In this document: in pieces, positions 2,246 to 26,347 of the stretch
Numbering within the stretch: the first letter of the stretch is position 1
Layout of the letters: the number at the start of each line of letters is the position of its first letter
DNA from: an uncultured Bacteroidales bacterium
GTDB taxonomy: Bacteria; Bacteroidota; Bacteroidia; Bacteroidales; Paludibacteraceae
Reading direction: 5' to 3'
DNA: 40,155 nt
Assembly (NCBI GenBank): GCA_900320865.1
Contig: ONTT01000016.1
Span: 1 to 40,155 of the forward strand
Notes under the pieces: generated by a model
What the model saw: only the letters and a program-made list of their open reading frames with translations
What the model was told of the DNA's origin: nothing
Databases searched by the model: none
Made by a program: the position numbers and the translations under genes

Positions 2246-3126
2246 TACTATTAGACGGAAAGAAAGTAGCGGCCGAGAAACGGGCTGAGTTGCGCGAGAC
2301 GATCGCACAGCTGCAGGCAGCAGGCAAACGAGCACCCAAATTAGCCATCGTCATCGTAGGACATAACCCTGCGAGCGAGACCTATGTGGCCAATAAGATC
2401 AAAGCCTGCGGGGAAGTAGGTATCGAAGCCGAGAAGATCGCCTTCGAAGCCGATATCACCGAGCAGCAGTTATTGGCCGAGGTGAGCCGACTGAACCACG
2501 ATGCTACCATCGACGGCTTCATCGTGCAGTTACCGCTGCCGGAACATATCTCGGAGACCACGATCATGAGTGCTATTGATCGCCGAAAAGATGTAGATGG
2601 TCTCACGCCGGAGAACGTAGGACGCACCGTACAAGGTCTGCCGTCTATCATCAGCGCTACGCCGCGCGGCATACGCGAACTGTTGGCGTATTATCAGATA
2701 CCGACGGAAGGCAGACATGTGGTGGTGATCGGTAGGTCTAATATCGTCGGCAAACCCATCGCGATGCTGCTGATGCAACGGCCGTACCTGAGTCTGCCGA
2801 GCATGAGTGCCGCTTCATTAGGCGACGCCACCGTGACGATCTGTCACTCCAAGACCCGCGACCTGAAGTCGATCTGCCTCACCGCCGATATCATCATCGT
2901 AGCTGCCGGATGCCCGAAGTTACTGACGGCAGACATGGTGAAAGAAGGGGTGACTATTATTGACGTAGGTATCAACCGCGTGGACGGTAAACTCGTGGGA
3001 GACGTCGATTTTGAAAACGTAGCACCCAAAGCCGCCTATATAACCCCCGTACCCGGTGGCGTAGGTCCGATGACGATCGTAAGCCTATTGCAGAATACGC
3101 TGCAGGCGTATGAGTGTAAGGTGTAA
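2242..3126 (+). CDS. folD: Bifunctional methylenetetrahydrofolate dehydrogenase / methenyl-THF cyclohydrolase FolD
   Basis: FolD interconverts 5,10-methylene-, 5,10-methenyl- and 10-formyl-tetrahydrofolate in the cytoplasm, supplying formyl groups for purines and initiator tRNA. The 294-residue product shows the substrate-site Tyr-x3-Lys (YVANK, residues 52-56), [10 protein letters not shown], the NADP-binding GRSNIVGKP and the C-terminal PGGVGPMT. I chose ATG 2242 because the family begins with a short strand like MILLDGKK; the frame is open further upstream, but that overlaps the previous gene and is not family-like. The ATGA overlap suggests coupling to the His-rich gene. The final codons and stop lie inside a heptamer array, so the C-terminal Lys-Val is encoded by repeat units. 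It cooperates with GlyA and GcvP, encoded elsewhere in this window. Confidence 0.96.
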
Positions 3127-3183
3127 GGTGTAAGGTGTAAGGTGTAAGGTGTAAGGTGTAAGGTGTAAGGTGTAAGGTGAAAG
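3114..3183 (+). repeat. Heptanucleotide tandem array (GTGTAAG)n between folD and prfA
   Basis: Nine perfect GTGTAAG units (3114-3176) are followed by one variant, GTGAAAG (3177-3183), which directly abuts the prfA ATG at 3184. The folD stop (3124-3126) lies inside the array. Each junction contains AAGGTG, a partial Shine-Dalgarno match, so the array supplies whatever ribosome binding site prfA has. Confidence 0.97.
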
Positions 3184-4284
3184 ATGAACATTCTCGATAA
3201 AATAGACGGATTAGAGGCGAAGTTCCATGAGGTGAGTCTGTTGATTACGGACCCTGCGGTGATAGCCGATCAGGCGCGGTATGTGCGTCTGAATCGTGAC
3301 TATCACGATTTGGAGCGTGTGTTAGAATGCGCCCATCGTTATAAGAAAGCGGTGACGGACCTGCAGGATGCGAAGGACTTGTTCTTCAATGAGTCCGACC
3401 CGGAGATGAAGGAGATGGCGAAAGCGGAGATCGATGAACTCGAGCCGCAGATACCTAAACTGGAAGAGGAACTGAAGCTGCAGTTACTGCCGCAGGACCC
3501 GGAAGACGGAAAGAACGTGGTGATGGAGATCCGTGGCGGTACGGGAGGAGACGAGGCAGCTATCTTCGCCGGCGATCTCTTCCGTATGTACACAAAGTAC
3601 TTTGAGATCAAGGGATTCAAATATAGCGTGTCTTCGTTCACCGAAGGTGCAGCCGGCGGATACAAGGAGATCATCTTCAATGTAACCGGTCAGAACGTAT
3701 ATGGTACGCTCAAATATGAGAGTGGCGTTCACCGTGTGCAGCGTGTACCGGTGACCGAGACCCAAGGACGCGTACATACTTCCGCCGCTACCGTAGCGGT
3801 GTTGCCCGAGGCCGATGAGTTTGAAGTGCACATCAACGAAGGGGAAATCAAATGGGAGACCTTCCGTTCCGGCGGTGCGGGTGGACAGAACGTCAATAAG
3901 GTGGAGTCCGGTGTGCGGTTGCGTTATAACTGGAAAAATCCCAACACGGGCGAAGTGCAGGAGATACTGATCGAGTGTACCGAGACGCGTGACCAACCGA
4001 AGAACAAAGAGCGTGCTCTCTCGCGCCTGCGTACGCAGATATATGATAAGGAGCATCAGAAATATATCGATGACATCGCTGCCCGACGTAAGACGATGGT
4101 CTCGACCGGTGACCGAAGTGCGAAGATCCGCACGTATAACTACCCGCAGGGACGTATCACCGACCATCGTATCGGTTATACGGTCTATAACCTCGCGGCC
4201 TTCATGGACGGCGATATACAAGGCGTGATCGATGCGCTGCAAGTAGCCGAAAACGCAGAACGACTCAAAGAGAGTGAGTTGTGA
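3184..4284 (+). CDS. prfA: Peptide chain release factor 1
   Basis: RF1 recognises UAA and UAG in the ribosomal A site and triggers peptide release. The 366-residue product is full length, with an N-terminal coiled helical domain. The anticodon-like tripeptide PVT at 189-191 identifies RF1 rather than RF2 (which has SPF). The universal GGQ motif is at 233-235 in GAGGQNVNK; its Gln is normally methylated by PrmC. The ATG at 3184 directly follows the heptamer array and is the family start. It is probably co-transcribed with ffh and folD. No RF2-type programmed frameshift is present, as expected. Confidence 0.96.
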   Translation: MNILDKIDGLEAKFHEVSLLITDPAVIADQARYVRLNRDYHDLERVLECAHRYKKAVTDLQDAKDLFFNESDPEMKEMAKAEIDELEPQIPKLEEELKLQLLPQDPEDGKNVVMEIRGGTGGDEAAIFAGDLFRMYTKYFEIKGFKYSVSSFTEGAAGGYKEIIFNVTGQNVYGTLKYESGVHRVQRVPVTETQGRVHTSAATVAVLPEADEFEVHINEGEIKWETFRSGGAGGQNVNKVESGVRLRYNWKNPNTGEVQEILIECTETRDQPKNKERALSRLRTQIYDKEHQKYIDDIAARRKTMVSTGDRSAKIRTYNYPQGRITDHRIGYTVYNLAAFMDGDIQGVIDALQVAENAERLKESEL

Positions 4285-4383: not shown

Positions 4384-5088
4384 ATGTATTTATTTTATTG
4401 TCCGGATATTGAAACGAAGCAGACGCTTTCTGAAGAAGAGAGCGGACACTGCGTGCGGGTGCTACGCTACAGCGTAGGGGATGAGATCTTGATTACAGAC
4501 GGAAAGGGTACGACCTATACGGCACGTATCACCAATCCGCATCCGAAGCATTGTGATTTTGAGATTATAAGCCGCGAGAAACAACAACCGCATCACGCTT
4601 TTCACCTGCACATCGCTATCGCGCCGACCAAGAATATCGAGCGCCTGGAATGGGCCATCGAGAAATGCGTAGAGATTGGTGTAGATGAGATCACGCCGCT
4701 CTTATGCCGTTTCTCAGAGCGCAAACAGTTGCGTACGGATCGCTTAGAGAAAATCATCCTCTCTGCTGCCAAACAAAGTTTGACACCTTACTTACCTGTG
4801 CTGCATGAGTTAACACCGTACGATGACTTTATTCGCGAACAAGCCGCTAAAGACCAACAATGCTTCATCGCGCATTGTTACAAAGAGGATAAACGGGTAC
4901 TGAAAAACGAGATAGAGCGGGGTAGAGACGTGCTGGTGCTGATTGGTCCCGAAGGTGATTTCAGTGAACAGGAAGTGGCGGATGCTCTGGCAGCCGGTTT
5001 TATTCCGGTCAGTTTAGGAAACAGTCGTCTGCGCACGGAGACAGCCGGTGTGGTAGCATGCCATACGGCGGTACTCGTGAACGAGTGA
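4384..5088 (+). CDS. rsmE: 16S rRNA (uracil-1498-N3)-methyltransferase RsmE
   Basis: RsmE uses S-adenosylmethionine to methylate N3 of U1498 in helix 44 of 16S rRNA on assembled 30S subunits. The 234-residue product has the expected N-terminal PUA-like domain followed by a SPOUT (trefoil-knot) methyltransferase domain. Knot motifs are GPEGDFSEQE (from 188) and LGNSRLRTETA (about 211-221). The length is typical. The ATG at 4384 follows an ATTGGTA heptamer and yields the usual family N-terminus. Its place beside prfA and ffh fits a translation-centred operon. Confidence 0.94.
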   Translation: MYLFYCPDIETKQTLSEEESGHCVRVLRYSVGDEILITDGKGTTYTARITNPHPKHCDFEIISREKQQPHHAFHLHIAIAPTKNIERLEWAIEKCVEIGVDEITPLLCRFSERKQLRTDRLEKIILSAAKQSLTPYLPVLHELTPYDDFIREQAAKDQQCFIAHCYKEDKRVLKNEIERGRDVLVLIGPEGDFSEQEVADALAAGFIPVSLGNSRLRTETAGVVACHTAVLVNE

Positions 5089-5100
5089 TGGTGAGTGGTA

Positions 5101-5184
5101 ATTGGTGATTGGTAATTGGTGATTGGTGATTGGTGATTGGTGATTGGTGATTGGTAATTGGTGATTGGTAATTGGTAATTGGTG
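5101..5184 (+). repeat. Heptanucleotide tandem array (ATTGGTG/ATTGGTA)12 running into the PAP2 start codon
   Basis: Twelve uninterrupted 7-bp units fill 5101-5184; units 2, 8, 10 and 11 end in A and the others in G. A degenerate unit precedes them after the rsmE stop. The last unit supplies TTG (5179-5181) and GTG (5182-5184), the only in-frame start codons near the beginning of the next gene. Confidence 0.97.
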
Positions 5185-5754
5185 AATGTAGATTTTTACA
5201 TATTAGAATGGATCAACGGGCATTATGCGGACTGGTTGGACACGGTGATGTGGACGATCAGTTGGCCGACGACCTGGATTCCGCTGTATGTGGTGCTGTT
5301 GGGGCTATTGGCCTGGCGTTACCGTAGTATCGAGTCGATGGCGTTGATCATTCTGGGACTCGTGTTAGCAGTTGGCCTGAGTGATTTCACTTGCAGCGGT
5401 ATCCTCAAACCTTTGGTTTGTCGGTTACGTCCCACGCATGAACCGGCGATTGGTCCGATGCACTTAGTGAACGGATATGTAGGCGGATTATACGGATTTT
5501 GCAGCAGTCATGCCGCCAACACGATGGCAATCGGTTTGCTCTTCAGTCTGCTGTTCCGCAATAAAATAGCTACCTCATGTATGATGACATGGGTAGCTTT
5601 GAACTGCTATAGTCGAATGTACGAAGGGGCACACTATCCGACGGATATCATGGCCGGTCTTCTGATTGGATCTCTATGGTCTGTTCTGATTTGGCTGGCA
5701 TTAACGCGTTGGTGCCACGTGGACGCCTCGGCAACTCCGCAGGGTGGTTCATAA
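5182..5754 (+). CDS. PAP2-family membrane phosphatase
   Basis: Members of this family dephosphorylate phosphatidic acid, phosphatidylglycerol phosphate or undecaprenyl pyrophosphate on the outer face of the inner membrane. The 190-residue product has several hydrophobic segments and all three PAP2 signatures: K-x6-RP (Lys76, Arg83, Pro84), Ser-His in place of PSGH (Ser109, His110), and SR-x5-H-x3-D (Arg145, His151, Asp155). Substrate cannot be decided from sequence. The start is non-ATG: GTG 5182 (preferred) or TTG 5179, both within the heptamer array; the nearby ATG at 5186 is out of frame and hits a stop at once. The last 107 bp overlap the convergent Spy-like gene. Confidence 0.88.
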   Translation: MNVDFYILEWINGHYADWLDTVMWTISWPTTWIPLYVVLLGLLAWRYRSIESMALIILGLVLAVGLSDFTCSGILKPLVCRLRPTHEPAIGPMHLVNGYVGGLYGFCSSHAANTMAIGLLFSLLFRNKIATSCMMTWVALNCYSRMYEGAHYPTDIMAGLLIGSLWSVLIWLALTRWCHVDASATPQGGS

Positions 5755-21680: not shown

Positions 21681-21765
21681 GCCTCCGGATGCTATCCGGC
21701 CGCATGGCTATCTGCCTCCGGATGCTATCCGGCCGCATGGCTATCTGCCTCCGGACGCTGTCTGG
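21681..21765 (+). repeat. 33-bp hairpin-forming direct repeats between convergent genes
   Basis: Two identical 33-bp units (21681-21713 and 21714-21746) are followed by a diverged 19-bp third copy (21747-21765) that abuts the stop of the PepSY gene. Each copy contains a 6-bp stem with a GCT loop (CCGGAT/ATCCGG). In the third copy the stem is CCGGAC/GTCTGG, which keeps pairing through a compensatory pair and a G-T wobble. The hairpins may act as a 3' end or stability element for either transcript. Confidence 0.85.
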
Positions 21766-24574: not shown

Positions 24575-26347
24575 CTAATTAACTTCCGGCTTCATCGTCG
24601 GGAATAACAATACTTCTTGAATGGTCGGCTGACCGGTCATAAACATCGCCAAACGGTCGATACCAATACCGATACCCGACGTAGGAGGCATACCGTATTC
24701 CAGCGCGCGCATAAAGTCGTGGTCAATTACCATAGCCTCGTCGTCACCCTTGTCGGCCAACTTCATCTGCTCCACAAAGCGGTTGTATTGGTCGATCGGG
24801 TCATTTAACTCGCTATAGGCGTTCGCCAACTCCTTGCCGTTCACCATCAACTCAAAACGCTCGGTCAATCCGGGCTTCGAGCGGTGCATCTTCGTCAACG
24901 GACTCATCTCAACCGGATAATCCGTGATAAAGGTCGGTTGAATGAACGTACCTTCGCACGTCTCGCCGAAGATCTCATCAATCAACTTACCCTTACCCAT
25001 ATGTTCCGTATCTTCTACACCTAATTTCTTCGCCTCTGCACGAATAGCATCCTCGTCCATCGAAGCCAAGTCCAAACCCGTCTTCTCTTTGATAGCATCC
25101 AAAATCGGCAGACGACGATACGGTGCTTTGAAATCCACTTCGTGATCACCGATCTGCACCTTCGTGCTACCGTTCACAGCAATCGCAATCTTCTCCAATA
25201 ACTGCTCCGTGAAACTCATCATCCAGTTGTAGTCCTTGTATTGCACGTACAACTCCATGCAGGTGAACTCGGGGTTATGGTTGCGGTCCATTCCTTCGTT
25301 GCGGAAGTTACGGCCGATCTCATAAACACCCTCGAAACCGCCTACAATAAGGCGCTTCAAGTACAACTCCGTCGCAATACGCAGGTACATATCTACGTCT
25401 AAAGAGTTATGATGCGTGATAAACGGACGGGCACTCGCTCCGCCAGCAATCTGCTGAAGAATAGGGGTCTCAACCTCGGTATAGCCTGCCTCGTCAAATA
25501 CTTGACGCATGGTACGTAAGATGGCTGCACGCTTCAGGAACGTATCCTTCACGCCCTCATTTACGACCAAATCCACATAGCGCTGACGATAACGTTGCTC
25601 CGGATCATTAAAGCCGTCATAAGCCACACCGTCTTTGTATTTCACAATAGGCAGCGGCTTCAGACTCTTGGCCAAAACCGTTAACTTTTTCGCGTGCACG
25701 GAAATCTCACCCATCTGAGTACGGAAAACGAAACCTTCAATGCCGATGAAATCGCCAATATCCAGCAGTTTCTTAAATACTACATTGTACATCTGCTGCT
25801 CCACAGTCAATCCACCATTTGCACCATTAGCACCATTTGTACCATTTGCACCATTTGTACCATTAGCACCATTTGTACCATTTGCACCATTAGCACCATT
25901 AGCACCATTTGTACCATTAGCACCATTTGTACTATTTGTACTATTTGTACCATTTGTACCATTTGTACCATTTGTACTATTCGCCTCCGGAACCGGCGCT
26001 TGTATATCATCGCGGCTCACGTATACCTGAATACGACCCTTCGAGTCCTGAATCTCGATAAACGAAGCCTTTCCCATGATACGCTTGCTCATCAGACGTC
26101 CGGCAATTCGTACTTCGTCACCCGTGTGCCAAATACGTTCACCATTGGCATTATTGAGCGAAGCGCTCATTTCACCATTGGCATCATTGAGCGAAGCGCT
26201 CATTTCACCATTATCCACAAATCCAGCCTTTATATCTGTGGAGTACCCGGTCACTTCATACTCCGCCGCAGGGTAGGGATCGATACCCATATCACGCATC
26301 GTCTGCAAACTCTGACGGCGTACAATTTCTTGTTCACTTAATTCCAT
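24575..26347 (-). CDS. lysS: Lysyl-tRNA synthetase (class II) with two repeat insertions
   Basis: LysRS charges tRNA-Lys in the cytoplasm. The 590-residue product has an N-terminal OB-fold anticodon-binding domain ([20 protein letters not shown]) and a class II catalytic core with motif 2 ([15 protein letters not shown]) and motif 3 ([12 protein letters not shown]). Without its inserts it would be about 510 residues, the family norm. The first insert (about residues 48-70) is a twice-repeated 11-residue unit with MSASLN. The second (123-179) is 19 Asn-Gly-Thr/Ala tripeptides directly after the SRDDI strand, in a surface loop. Both are in frame and the catalytic core is intact, so the enzyme is probably active. 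It heads the minus-strand operon, transcribed from 26448-26418. Confidence 0.96.
25811..25981 (-). repeat. 9-bp minisatellite (19 units) inside lysS
   Basis: Exactly 171 bp consist of nineteen 9-bp units, each coding Asn-Gly/Ser-Thr/Ala (the last is Asn-Gly-Gly). Codons are nearly invariant: AAT for Asn, GGT or AGT, then ACA, GCA or GCT. This indicates recent slippage expansion rather than old protein evolution. Thirteen consecutive units at the C-terminal end keep Gly at every third residue. Confidence 0.97.
26141..26206 (-). repeat. 33-bp tandem duplication in the lysS N-terminal region
   Basis: Two 33-bp copies (26141-26173 and 26174-26206) differ by one base and encode an 11-residue unit containing GEMSASLN. 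A partial third ACCATT follows. Each copy contains GAGCG AAG CGCTC, a short perfect hairpin. Confidence 0.95.

Follow-up and report, generated by a model that had tools for sequence, protein, structure and literature searches.

The window analysed here, a stretch of 40,155 nucleotides from an uncultured Bacteroidales bacterium of the family Paludibacteraceae, which appears to be a gut organism, raises the question of how a long tandem repeat came to lie, in frame, within an essential enzyme of translation. The host ORF scored 678.7 bits against NF001756 (cut-off 468) and 593 bits against TIGR00499 (cut-off 427.6), which places it within the curated class II lysS models as lysyl-tRNA synthetase (LysRS; Table 1). 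An earlier, sequence-only reading had described a 171-bp in-frame array of 19 units of 9 bp, and this was recovered both by TRF (25814-25981, period 9, 18.7 copies, 0% indels) and by an exact count of in-frame units, which in the sequence as assembled fill the tabulated interval.

Table 1. Features of the lysS locus (window coordinates) and repeat sequences of the LysRS loops.
Feature	Coordinates	Strand	Basis or detail
lysS, lysyl-tRNA synthetase (LysRS), 590 aa	24575..26347	-	ORF; NCBIfam NF001756; solved LysRS are the best structure matches
Second in-frame repeat, loop 1, residues about 46-70	26138..26212	-	TRF; 33-bp unit, 2.3 copies, peptide of 25 residues
OB-fold strand beta3, residues 105-111, upstream edge of loop 2	26015..26035	-	AlphaFold2 model
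Nonamer array, loop 2, residues 123-179, Asn-(Gly/Ser)-(Thr/Ala/Gly)	25811..25981	-	TRF and exact in-frame units
OB-fold helix, residues 182-197, downstream edge of loop 2	25757..25804	-	AlphaFold2 model and alignment to solved LysRS
Unit types of the nonamer array			S = AATAGTACA; T = AATGGTACA; A = AATGGTGCT; a = AATGGTGCA; g = AATGGTGGA
Examples of LysRS loop repeats			VTGDGLPVTG; SNQQS; VESVECRVVES; STCNLKPETCNL; DRLQVAGDRLQVAG

The second codons of the units are GGT in 16 cases and AGT in three, giving 16 Asn-Gly and three Asn-Ser units, of which the final (19th) reads Asn-Gly-Gly. The unit types follow one another in the order S T T T S S A T A A a T A T a T A a g, and this recurring order of mixed units fits a history of multi-unit duplication. 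Near-invariant codons had been taken as a sign of duplication at the DNA level, and we confirmed this: Asn is encoded in 19 of 19 cases by AAT, a codon used for 45% of Asn in the genome sample (chance ~3e-7), and Thr by ACA in 10 of 10, against 17% (chance ~2e-8). A first-order Markov resample of a 550-kb sample of the source genome yielded 12 arrays, none of them of period 9, compared with 178 in the real sequence. The last 13 units form an uninterrupted Asn-Gly-X run, with Gly at every third residue as had been noted, and as in collagen Gly-X-Y. Unlike collagen, the array has no proline and occupies a loop of a translation enzyme, and a collagen-like structure was rejected, the match to Pfam Collagen (26.3 bits) falling below the cut-off of 27.2.

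Two loops of LysRS are considered below: loop 1, which precedes the OB barrel, and loop 2, which in an AlphaFold2 model connects strand beta3 of the anticodon-binding OB fold to its helix and holds the array. The modelled fold comprises strands at residues 78-91, 94-100 and 105-111, the helix at 182-197, and strands at 200-209 and 215-224. Alignment to E. coli LysU (1e1o), whose residues 104 and 105 correspond to residues 116 and 184 of the LysRS studied here, agrees with this position of the array. The array had been placed immediately after an SRDDI strand; its site in the OB fold holds, but seven residues (QAPVPEA) intervene. A first model, with mostly close relatives as input, was poor (mean pLDDT 52), and a second, from wider relatives, was modest (mean pLDDT 65.3) with parts of the catalytic domain weak, so that only the order of the OB elements was taken from it; Foldseek ranked LysRS structures first with an rmsd near 15, and we therefore claim no distances. 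Residues 118-180 have pLDDT below 50, mostly ~30. The proposal that the loop is tolerated agrees, as to disorder, with the predicted pLDDT of ~30 through the array, and we regard a disordered linker, tolerated by an enzyme that still works, as the most likely product.

We compared both loops across 93 LysRS of the genus, whose members are given in record titles as Paludibacteraceae or Bacteroidales, many of them from ruminant or horse gut. The set was built from 90 loci in 89 genomes out of 101 (G029, with two LysRS copies, being counted twice) and three named records assigned to the genus solely from identity and their position in the tree; the other 12 genomes, in which LysRS was missing, partial or split, were left out, and 15 of 80 LysRS loci of relatives were unparsed for loops. 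Loop 1 ranges from 10 to 43 residues and loop 2 from 4 to 70, loop 2 having 16 residues in 59 sequences and seven in nine. Outside the genus, loop 2 had seven residues (eight counting the final M/L) in all 36 parsed loci of the 57 surveyed (18 loci and one further loop, in L292, were unparsed, and two loci belonged to the genus), in keeping with the claim that this loop is normally short. An exception beyond the genus is the LysRS of a Prevotellaceae UBA4336 locus (L101), with a heptamer-like repeat in loop 2 at positions 3323-3382 of that locus, possibly an independent case.

Within the genus, the loops change between close relatives, a point that the sequence-only reading had proposed to check by comparing related lysS genes. 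A close relative, G046, differs from the source LysRS at five positions over 395 residues from DIGDF onward and has a shorter nonamer array, with edges common to both arrays and different units and copy number. Another pair (L028 and L030) is identical over 393 residues from DIGDF onward, with unrelated sequences in loop 1. On a 92-row LysRS tree we counted at least 58 length changes in loop 1, at least 25 in loop 2, and 15 changes of repeat state (19 rows set as repeat-bearing), counts that are rough because 46 of 88 inner branches are weakly supported; L091 was omitted from the tree, and L029 passed p<=0.02 yet was not set as repeat-bearing. Tandem structure was detected in 25 of the 76 loops of at least 18 residues (shuffle p<=0.02; ~1.5 expected by chance), distributed over 20 of the 93 sequences, with lags of 7 or 14 in 15 loops, 9 in four and other values in six; the same shuffle test gave no tandem signal in the remaining 51. 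The sequence-only reading had held that unrelated sequence of the same length in relatives would argue against an expanding tract. Unrelated sequence is indeed found, its lengths varying widely instead of being the same, and this points to repeated replacement at a permissive site, not to one long-lived expanding tract.

These comparisons bear on two other explanations. That the array arose by faulty assembly or binning is very improbable: the genus records whose titles were inspected are metagenome assemblies, and a 171-bp array exceeds common short reads, so that its copy number may be wrong, but a nonamer array bounded by the same edges is present in a separate assembly, G046, and the units of the array vary in a non-random order. 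A single open frame moreover runs through both loops in all 90 loci from the 89 genomes (12 of the 101 having been left out), a result partly due to how the sequences were picked. An adaptive role, in which a flexible linker would alter tRNA binding, stability, oligomer contacts or, as the sequence-only reading also suggested, solubility of LysRS, would suit the modelled position within the anticodon-binding OB fold and has a precedent in Mycobacterium tuberculosis LeuA, where repeat number reportedly altered kinetics and feedback inhibition (PMC2704214). We nevertheless consider it improbable, given that close relatives have a 16-residue loop or unrelated repeats in its place, that loop length changes frequently on the tree, and that one species (L018) has only four residues in loop 2.

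Going beyond the sequence-only reading, we identified a second in-frame repeat in lysS, in loop 1, and similar inserts in many core genes across the genus. The 33-bp unit of this second repeat has a palindromic core, GAGCGCTTCGCTC, and partial copies of it occur at two other places in the source genome and in five of the eight other genomes searched. In this species Asn-Gly/Asp-type repeats occur in both LysRS loops, and neither repeat looks like an isolated slippage accident.

Words found in LysRS loops recur elsewhere. A 30-bp heptamer word, GGTTACGGGTGASGGGTTACMGGTTACGGG, was found with at most two mismatches in 31 of 101 genomes, with up to 35 matches each (overlaps counted). In G035 and G074 it occupies both LysRS loops, and in G006 it lies in a RuvA-like gene; its reversed control gave no match in the 101 genomes. 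Runs of three consecutive nonamer units turned up in 28 of the 101 genomes. The source genome has 28 overlapping matches, spread over 11 places, and the reversed control matched in none of the 101; the consensus of this family is AATGRTGMN. The GAGTTGA heptamer of the G053 LysRS loop occurs at seven places in G053, the loop itself lacking the first base of the query; reversing this word only shifts the register of the same repeat, which makes its reversed control uninformative. When ten LysRS loop words were searched, six had copies in the 0.92 Mb of genus samples, and the 0.40 Mb of family samples contained none of the ten. The loop word of G016 was found in seven other genomes.

Plain local slippage, with tracts born in place from chance near-repeats, without copying, and tolerated by permissive loops, is in our view rather unlikely as a full account. 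It would accommodate the different words found in most loops, the common edges and differing units of the source and G046 arrays, and the report from one survey that, among longer repeats, heptamers are the commonest class in most genomes, for which slippage has been proposed (PMC4679880, PMC4692102). It does not readily explain why one 30-bp word, identical down to its internal variants, occurs in two LysRS loops and in other genes, nor does it readily account for the 88 pairs of coinciding heptamer words in the source sample, where simulation on base composition only gave a mean of 4.1. The sharing of the 30-bp word between sites in both orientations relative to the host ORF favours copying between sites. 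Birth in place may explain some loops, since the exact G016 word has no other copy within G016 and four of the ten loop words had none in the 0.92-Mb genus samples.

We considered two further candidate causes. A single causal heptamer was rejected in view of the 42 distinct canonical heptamers among 78 arrays of the source sample. Transposition of the REP/RAYT type gained no support, although it may still play a part: with E<=0.001, the REP-associated Y1 transposase profile PF01797 had matches in 30 of the 101 genomes, 25 of which exceeded the cut-off, the matches being scattered, mostly weak, and weak in the source genome, and this search of the 101 genomes tied no transposase to the repeats.

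The words are biased in the frame in which they are read. Among the matches listed for the 30-mer, 16 of 30 loci encode VTGDGLPVTG, 13 encode PVTGNPSPVT from the reverse strand, and one is non-coding; the third open frame (LRVTGYRLR) was used at none of these 30. That 29 of the 30 are coding is no excess, as a genome that is 92% coding gives about that number by chance. For the nonamer, 30 loci of 28 genomes gave 25 readings as Asn-Gly/Asp-X, one in another frame and four non-coding, so that 25 of 26 coding loci share one reading, as do all seven nonamer runs, in five ORFs, of a 562-kb sample of the source genome. Frame probabilities were taken with open frames assumed equally likely. Selection for soluble, flexible inserts would leave a bias of this kind.

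We additionally surveyed arrays across whole stretches of genome. Of the 178 arrays in the source sample, 92 have a period of 7, 14, 21, 28 or 35. Arrays of these periods in ORF interiors numbered 35 per 509 kb of coding sequence in the source sample, 28 per 367 kb in 20 other species of the genus, and five per 351 kb in 20 stretches taken from the family's other genera (genus versus family, p ~5e-5, the stretches being hand-picked from known contigs and not random). ORFs were called by length only, and some arrays are ordinary protein repeats. Non-coding arrays numbered 51, 29 and 12, respectively, indicating that part of the coding excess is a general one. Outside the genus, 41 non-coding heptamer arrays were found in 503 kb of lysS-neighbourhood loci, and heptamer words are therefore not special to the genus.

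Several arrays lie in the window itself. Ten near-perfect GTGTAAG heptamers occupy positions 3114-3183 between two ORFs that we take to be folD-like and prfA-like; a GTGATTG array of 14.6 copies (5085-5185), of one of the two commonest word classes in the source sample, extends into the start of an ORF at 5179; a 33-bp unit different in sequence from that of lysS is present in 2.4 copies between two ORFs (21681-21759); and a His codon run (1808-1830) encodes eight His residues in the ORF at 1754-2245.

The genes that host repeats include core enzymes. Among ten ORFs hand-chosen from 28 for an NCBIfam scan, eight exceeded the cut-off, as MurF, FabD, LigA, SufS, AlaRS, DapA, SufB and PdxA, and two, a Clp ATPase and an RlmKL-like host, fell below it. 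The SufB array of the source genome has a period of 15, not 7 or 9 bp, and the PdxA array lies at the C-terminal end, outside any loop. A SufB-like gene contains different repeats in two species, apparently at the same loop. Further hosts, to judge from their sequences, are presumably RuvA, AroB, DXS, NtrC-like, RdgB, ValRS, MazG and YidC. Nonamer inserts were also seen in two species (L407 and L422) within putative receiver domains of what we take to be response regulators.

We propose, with a probability of roughly 0.70 (tempered because the open frames are partly a matter of selection of the sequences), that the LysRS array exemplifies a genus-wide, frame-filtered and neutral capture of short repeats in permissive loops, followed by slippage. 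Short repeats, mostly heptamers but also the AATGRTGMN nonamer family and the palindromic 33-bp unit, would keep arising within and outside genes. A repeat entering a core gene would survive only at a permissive surface loop, in phase and free of stops, and the orientations and frames that persist would be those giving a soluble, flexible peptide. Once captured, the repeat would expand and contract through slippage and through unequal duplication. The analysis shows the array and its frame, the hypervariable loops, the dispersed families of words, the frame bias and the recurrence in further core genes; we infer that the inserts are neutral and lie at the surface, that capture preceded expansion and that the enzyme works.

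A further-reaching version, which we offer as tentative, the odds being somewhat against it, is that the genus carries mobile or copied short words that spread into loops of core proteins and are filtered by frame into standard flexible linkers (NGA/NDE, VTGDGLPVTG, PVTGNPSPVT), so that a sizeable share of the core proteome would hold recently gained disordered inserts. If so, the mechanism of spreading would be new.

Frame-filtered capture has partial parallels among known repeats. Heptanucleotide direct repeats are known in cyanobacteria as STRR. The LysRS array lacks their tandem 7-bp unit, which the surrounding genome has. Such repeats are reported from cyanobacteria, Beggiatoaceae and some Bacteroidetes, mostly in intergenic positions near start codons in the cases described (PMC4679880, PMC4692102); the period-7 arrays dispersed through the source genome (92 of 178) resemble them, and differ in that many lie in frame inside core genes, the LysRS array moreover having a period of 9. 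The M. tuberculosis leuA VNTR, an in-frame 57-bp tandem repeat (PMC2704214), is likewise of variable copy number and in a core enzyme, but its abstract concerns a single gene, whereas here we propose a genome-wide process in loops of core proteins. High short-repeat density in coding sequence has been reported for Bacteroidota (PMC12699852).

A further parallel is with the Rickettsia palindromic elements, dispersed repeats inserted in frame within conserved protein genes and apparently tolerated, which are reported as 105-146 bp long with long stem-loops and terminal inverted repeats (PMC2229807). As with these elements and with in-frame MITE fusions, the genus repeats are dispersed, in frame and within conserved genes of one lineage. 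They are not stem-loops of 105-146 bp with terminal inverted repeats, consisting instead of 7-9-bp tandem words of many sequences and one 33-bp unit with a short palindrome. By this analogy the genus repeats would work like the Rickettsia elements, while differing in sequence, size and tandem make-up. Our searches of the PMC open library turned up no report of repeats inserted in frame into core genes of Bacteroidales or into LysRS, and tandem micro-repeats recurring in the same core-enzyme loops across a genus, with a clear frame bias, are new as far as our searches show.

If our reading is right, the many species of this genus offer a natural experiment in the acquisition of disordered loops by proteins: close relatives whose enzymes are otherwise almost identical differ in the words found at a given loop of LysRS or of another core protein. 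What is known from Rickettsia, repeats within conserved genes, would then apply also to tandem micro-repeats and to a lineage from the gut, and the finding would warn that such loops are unsafe for trees and for annotation.
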